From: a virus
IMG/VR virus record: IMGVR_UViG_3300048088_000079
Coordinates: 1 to 49,104 of that record
Strand: one strand, 5' to 3'
Length of the DNA stretch: 49,104 nt
Every line of letters starts with the position of its first letter. The stretch's first letter is position 1. The notes under the pieces were generated by a model that saw only the letters and a list, made by a program, of their open reading frames with translations, ran no database searches and was not told the origin of the DNA. Of the stretch, positions 14,852-14,974 are shown piece by piece. The translations under genes and the position numbers were made by a program.

Positions 14852-14872
14852 CAGCCCGCGCGAGGCGGGCTG
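14852..14872 (-). terminator. Stem-loop terminator after the SSB gene
   Basis: CAGCCCGC and GCGGGCTG form an 8-bp stem with a 5-base loop. On the minus strand it is followed by TTTCATC, only a weak T-run. It lies after both SSB stop codons (zero frame at 14922 and -1 frame at 14881). Confidence 0.55.
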
Positions 14873-14878
14873 ATGGGG

Positions 14879-14974
14879 CTAGAACGGTATATCGTCGTCG
14901 TACCAGTCGTCGCCGATAGTTACGCTTGCTGTGCGAACGGATTCGCGTTTGCCGGCGGGCGCTGCGCGAAAGGG
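14879..14974 (-). other. Possible -1 frameshift region giving SSB a DDDIPF tail
   Basis: The slippery heptamer C CCT TTC lies at 14974-14968 in the zero frame of the SSB gene. After a -1 shift the frame is open for 29 codons to a TAG at 14881-14879 and ends IGDDWYDDDIPF, the classical SSB C-terminal tip. Without the shift, translation stops at 14922. TTCGCG and CGCGAA arms just after the site could form a stem. The frameshifted product would have 244 residues. A one-base deletion or assembly error is the alternative. Confidence 0.55.

Follow-up and report, generated by a model that had tools for sequence, protein, structure and literature searches.

A phage SSB gene with a bacterial-type tip in its -1 frame: a probable case of programmed ribosomal frameshifting

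The gene for a Gp2.5/Enc34-type single-stranded DNA-binding protein (SSB) in the viral DNA described here (the window, the whole stretch of 49,104 bases that was analysed) very probably yields two proteins that differ at the C-terminus, through programmed -1 ribosomal frameshifting, judging by its sequence and those of its relatives. The majority of ribosomes would pass the heptamer C CCT TTC and stop at the TAA at 14922-14920, giving a 230-residue SSB whose linker ends in NPFAQQA. On the heptamer, a minority would shift one base backwards: the tRNA-Pro would re-pair from CCU to CCC and the tRNA-Phe from UUC to UUU, and these ribosomes would add 29 residues finishing in GDDWYDDDIPF. We infer that such slippage would serve to fix what proportion of the SSB subunits can bind host or phage partners and inhibit themselves. 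It is also fairly likely that the bulk of the SSB is deliberately tip-less, that the shift equips a set fraction of subunits with a replica of the host's SSB tip, and that the tail is an exchangeable, frame-keeping cassette, which was dropped in some lineages.

The acidic C-terminal tail is not in the main reading frame of the window SSB, which closes with NPFAQQA and the TAA; the acidic tip is present only in the -1 frame. The heptamer, at 14974-14968, follows the pattern X XXY YYZ when read in the zero frame; behind it the -1 frame continues uninterrupted beyond the zero-frame TAA, with a product conserved in distant relatives, as far as SVTIGDDWYDDDIPF and its stop ending at 14879 (Table 1). 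The end of this product, GDDWYDDDIPF, is an acidic run ending in I-P-F at the extreme C-terminus, as in bacterial SSBs. An earlier note on this DNA had proposed a DDDIPF tip in this frame and behind this heptamer, and the sequence and its translation confirm both, together with the two proposed sizes: the open reading frame has 230 residues and the fused product 215 + 29 = 244. The openness of the 15-codon overlap in the -1 frame is uninformative, as it has a probability of about 0.77 under synonymous reshuffling; what stands out is the tip itself, the frame it occupies and the fact that it recurs in relatives. DIPF followed by a stop (GAYATHCCNTTYTRR) occurs once in the window and in none of 100 shuffles, and a strict D..IPF/W end in the -1 frame arose in 0-5e-5 of trials with Markov-randomised downstream DNA. 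The -1 stop is followed by a terminator-like GC hairpin, which is also found in most relatives.

Table 1. Features of the SSB gene, its putative shift site and its neighbourhood in the window
Feature	Positions	Strand	Remarks
Zero-frame SSB gene, 230 aa	14920..15612	-	OB-fold core and disordered NPF-rich linker, without acidic tip
Slippery heptamer C CCT TTC	14968..14974	-	X XXY YYZ in the zero frame; from the sequence
-1 extension PFRAAPAGKRESVRTASVTIGDDWYDDDIPF, 29 residues after Pro-Phe	14882..14974	-	stop TAG 14881-14879; from translation
SSB-type C-terminal tip IGDDWYDDDIPF	14882..14917	-	sole DIPF-stop of the window
Terminator-like hairpin, 8 bp then TTTCATCTAT	14852..14872	-	six bases after the -1 stop
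PD-(D/E)XK nuclease	19322-18135	-	SSB neighbourhood
PAPS-reductase-like/DUF3440	16951-15752	-	SSB neighbourhood
C5-cytosine methyltransferase	about 14834-13926	-	between the SSB terminator and RusA
RusA resolvase	13956-13540	-	SSB neighbourhood

The zero-frame product is assigned to its family by profile and structure comparisons. The best profile match is phrog_16841, to which no function is assigned (E=3.9e-54); phrog_112 (Gp2.5-like SSB) matches more weakly but significantly (E=4.2e-5), and the score against Pfam PF10991 (Enc34 SSB) falls under the family cut-off. In an AlphaFold model built from 16 relatives, the OB-fold core, about residues 1-150, has a pLDDT mostly above 90, and the last 50 residues form a low-confidence linker. 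The model has the extended OB fold of the T7/Enc34 type, and Foldseek matches it to the Enc34 SSB crystal structures 5odj, 5odk and 5odl with E-values of 1.4e-8 to 5e-7 (5odl_A at E=1.4e-8, probability 1.00). On this model, the gene product is a Gp2.5/Enc34-type ssDNA-binding protein, with ssDNA binding predicted from the fold.

The Enc34 ORF6/T7 gp2.5 family (5odj/5odk/5odl, phrog_112, PF10991) resembles the window SSB in having an OB core followed by a disordered C-terminal segment. It differs in that the in-frame end of the window SSB is tip-less and the tip, located in the -1 frame, is of the bacterial type. The DDDIPF C-terminus matches that of Escherichia coli SSB, and the bacterial tip is a hub for the recruitment of replication and repair proteins; in contrast to the bacterial protein, the window's tip would be appended by frameshift onto an unrelated T7-type core. 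In E. coli, this SSB-Ct is a nine-residue acidic tip (PMC7145534). The Enc34, T7 and related SSBs carry their acidic tail in frame, and the Enc34 structure paper describes an acidic C-terminus as a hallmark of SSBs from all prokaryotes and phages (PMC5686142). Because removal of the acidic tail alters DNA binding in T7 gp2.5, T4 gp32 and Enc34 SSB (PMC5686142), the two proposed forms of the window SSB may bind DNA with unequal affinity or specificity.

The recurrence of the tip was followed by reading L001, a 94%-identical IMG/VR relative, and isolated phages in all three frames (relatives are given by L numbers where needed). Apart from the L001 pair, the aligned relatives have 36-59% protein identity to the window SSB, and the tip-bearing IMG/VR contigs about 40-57%. 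Bcep1 and BcepNY3 read AAC CCT TTC CTG and a stop, and their -1 frames end in FYFDDDDIPF and FLFDDDDIPF, respectively; Bcep43 and Bcep781 end in KDDWDADIPF. The Xanthomonas phages XapPhi1/3 read AAC CCT TTC GCG GCC CGG TGA, with a -1 end of LDDDQIPW. Canonical tips are also found in IMG/VR contigs (DDRDIPF in L018, DDSDIPF in L019), together with the near-tips DHDDIGY (L020) and EGDPF (L021). The tail of the tip-bearing relatives ranges from 23 to 72 codons, and its DNA largely differs between them. The comparison of relatives, which the earlier note had suggested as a check, speaks for frameshifting: the -1 tip stands behind CCCTTTC in isolates infecting two host genera and in several phages known from metagenomes, and among all tip-bearing relatives, isolates and IMG/VR contigs alike, no tip lies in the zero or +1 frame.

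Other relatives have lost or altered the tip. Non-canonical tails are present in L001 (NIWDTF), L332 (ENMGW) and L345 (CDTY), and L001 retains the heptamer and an open -1 frame; L023, L334 and L339 have the heptamer and no tip. Both are missing from many relatives, chiefly Xanthomonas phages and one IMG/VR clade; in some lineages the tip is therefore dispensable. In a tree of 37 proteins, the canonical tips are scattered, with at least four changes required by well-supported branches, and losses to no-tip states occur in several clades.

Several individual ends were observed alongside. In XapPhi5, the -1 frame ends in QIPC instead of the IPW of XapPhi1/3, a one-base change by which the terminal aromatic residue varies naturally (L012, L016, L033). 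The -1 tail of L340-L343 ends in PDDIP, one residue short of the final Phe, behind C CCT TTT (T CCT TTT in L340); the terminal Phe is normally essential in SSB tips. In L001 (3648-3803), the -1 tail is an unusual, possibly helical extension of 51 codons that contains internal ATG codons and ends in TKFTDAMIEREFRRVVARELRDIQKDMNIWDTF instead of DDDIPF. The Xanthomonas-type relatives L005-L007, L010, L011, L013-L015, L031 and L032 have no acidic tip in any frame; tip-less phage SSBs therefore exist.

The heptamer is common to the window and all other relatives with a canonical tip. When the tip-bearing rows were defined without reference to the heptamer, CCCTTTY lay at most 18 codons from the zero-frame stop in 12 of 13 of them, compared with 3 of 21 tipless rows (Fisher p about 1e-5, for rows that are related and not independent); the sole tip row without it is L340, with T CCT TTT. 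The codon choice is peculiar to the shift site. CCT TTC occurs at 14/14 of these sites, by definition, and at 0/21 of the remaining Pro-Phe pairs close to the ends of these genes, where the Pro codon is almost always CCG. In the long open reading frames of the window, CCT accounts for 49 of 363 Pro codons (13%). Wider searches returned no SSB relatives in a protein-profile scan of genome contigs, and none in a plasmid collection. CCCTTTC or AAAAAAG with DIPF-stop in viral contigs, and CCCTTTC in genome contigs, gave many matches; among the matches listed, the only convincing SSB with a -1 tip after inspection of the frames was the Bcep43 copy, and none of these matches showed the arrangement with CCCTTTC or AAAAAAG outside this SSB family.

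The site is accompanied by a potential stimulator in part of the family. By DNA folding, a stem starts exactly 6 nt past the heptamer in four lineages (Bcep1, NY3, Bcep43/781 and Xap), and -1 stimulators classically lie at such a 6-nt distance. The stem sequences vary between these lineages: Bcep1 has a GCGCG outer stem followed by GGCGCCGG/CCGGCGCC, Bcep43/781 has AGCGTCCCGA/TTGGGACGCT, Xap has CGGTGAGT/ACTCACCG, and NY3 forms a long stem of -27 kcal/mol over 45 nt. Compared with dinucleotide shuffles, the stems of NY3, Bcep43 and Xap reach z-scores of -2.1 to -4.3 over 45 nt. In the window itself, simple stem-loop folding gives no strong hairpin after the heptamer (z about 0), and a comparable simple stem at the 6-nt spacing is absent in the window, L001, L018-L021 and L332. 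In the lineages without a stem, the heptamer is often located 15-16 codons before the stop, not one to four, with L020 and L021 as exceptions. Shine-Dalgarno-like elements upstream of the heptamer are weak and inconsistently spaced, with no convincing one in the window, and Rfam has no match at the shift site.

Since the window has no strong downstream hairpin, its frameshift efficiency may be modest. Such a deficit leads to the alternative that survives best, in which frameshifting is real in the Bcep781-like and Xap relatives with hairpins and the window site has decayed to trace efficiency. The window's heptamer has neither a strong stem-loop nor a Shine-Dalgarno-like stimulator near it, and the tail of its closest relative, L001, is non-canonical. 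However, the perfect tip, the heptamer and the open frame are all retained in the window, and low-efficiency sites without recognised stimulators are used by some tailed phages (PMC5009743); decay is an unlikely explanation, with some weight left to it.

The divergence of the tails bears on a second alternative, that an ancestral SSB lost its tip by a frameshift mutation and the untranslated remnant persists as a fossil. Over the last eight tail codons, the window and Bcep1 have three identical, four synonymous and one nonsynonymous codon; Bcep1 and NY3 have seven identical and one synonymous; Bcep1 and Bcep43 differ by three synonymous and two nonsynonymous changes. The degenerate tails of L001 (WDTF), L332 (ENMGW) and L345 (CDTY), and their absence from L023, L334 and L339, are what such a fossil would leave. 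Yet the peptide is retained at synonymous-level divergence across lineages with about 40-57% protein identity, CCT TTC is site-specific, and hairpins begin 6 nt downstream in four lineages, all of which make the fossil improbable. The SSB core, the heptamer and the terminator hairpin are common to the window and L001, but the DNA from the zero-frame stop to the terminator is unrelated in the two, so the tail was swapped as one cassette in which the -1 frame stayed open.

A separate micropeptide, with the tip translated by coupling at the SSB stop and not fused to the SSB, finds some footing in the ATG inside the -1 tails of L001 and NY3, but ATG, GTG and TTG are all absent from the tails of Bcep43/781 and L018 as well as from that of the window, where ordinary initiation accordingly cannot make the tip; this explanation is highly improbable. 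A deletion of one base, or a sequencing error, close to the 3' end, which the earlier note had offered as its alternative and by which a single base would connect NPFAQQ to the tip, is very unlikely to underlie the arrangement: the same displacement in the isolates Bcep1, NY3, Bcep43, Bcep781 and XapPhi1/3 and in several metagenome contigs, whose mostly different tails vary in sequence and length yet keep the heptamer, rules out a deletion peculiar to the window, and these independent genomes already refute it as a general explanation.

The proposed frameshifting has counterparts in known systems. The dnaX gene gives two products, tau and gamma, by -1 slippage with a downstream stem-loop, and the window SSB would likewise be a replication gene with two products from such slippage. 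The direction is different: in dnaX the shift leads through a stop to the shorter form, whereas in the SSB gene it would lead to the longer form, which bears an interaction motif. Phage frameshift extensions are known for the tail chaperone G/GT and the T7/T3 capsid (reviewed in PMC5009743), where a -1 shift near the 3' end of the gene similarly places a C-terminal extension on a minority of subunits. Those cases concern structural proteins; the window case concerns a DNA-replication protein and an SSB tip. No report of SSB-gene frameshifting was found in the open-access literature searched. The available part of the recoding review (PMC5009743) does not mention SSB or ssDNA, nor does the PRFect paper mention Burkholderia or binding proteins, and the GenBank records of the relatives annotate the zero frame only. 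Within this searchable literature, frameshifting to an SSB tip appears new; phage frameshifting as such is already known.

If the frameshifting is real, the annotated C-termini of gp22 (Bcep1), gp21 (Bcep43/Bcep781) and gp20 (BcepNY3) are incomplete, and the protein would be a natural SSB that denies the tip to most subunits and supplies it by recoding, so that tip number itself is regulated. It would also offer a genetic handle: a silent CCT-to-CCG change would abolish the tip, and an in-frame fusion would tip all subunits, so that the number of tips required by a replicating phage could be worked out.

The Bcep781-like phages are distant relatives of the virus, and the same-strand genes flanking the SSB gene fit a recombination/replication cluster (Table 1). 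In L001 (3700-3900), RusA directly follows the terminator, without the methyltransferase gene found in the window, which points to a recent insertion or deletion of the methylase. The PAPS-reductase-like/DUF3440 gene is adjoined by a gene at 18084-16957 (-) without a Pfam match, the N-terminal part of which reads like a ParB/sulfiredoxin-type protein, and this pair (18084-16957 and 16951-15752) resembles DNA-modification or defence-associated modules.
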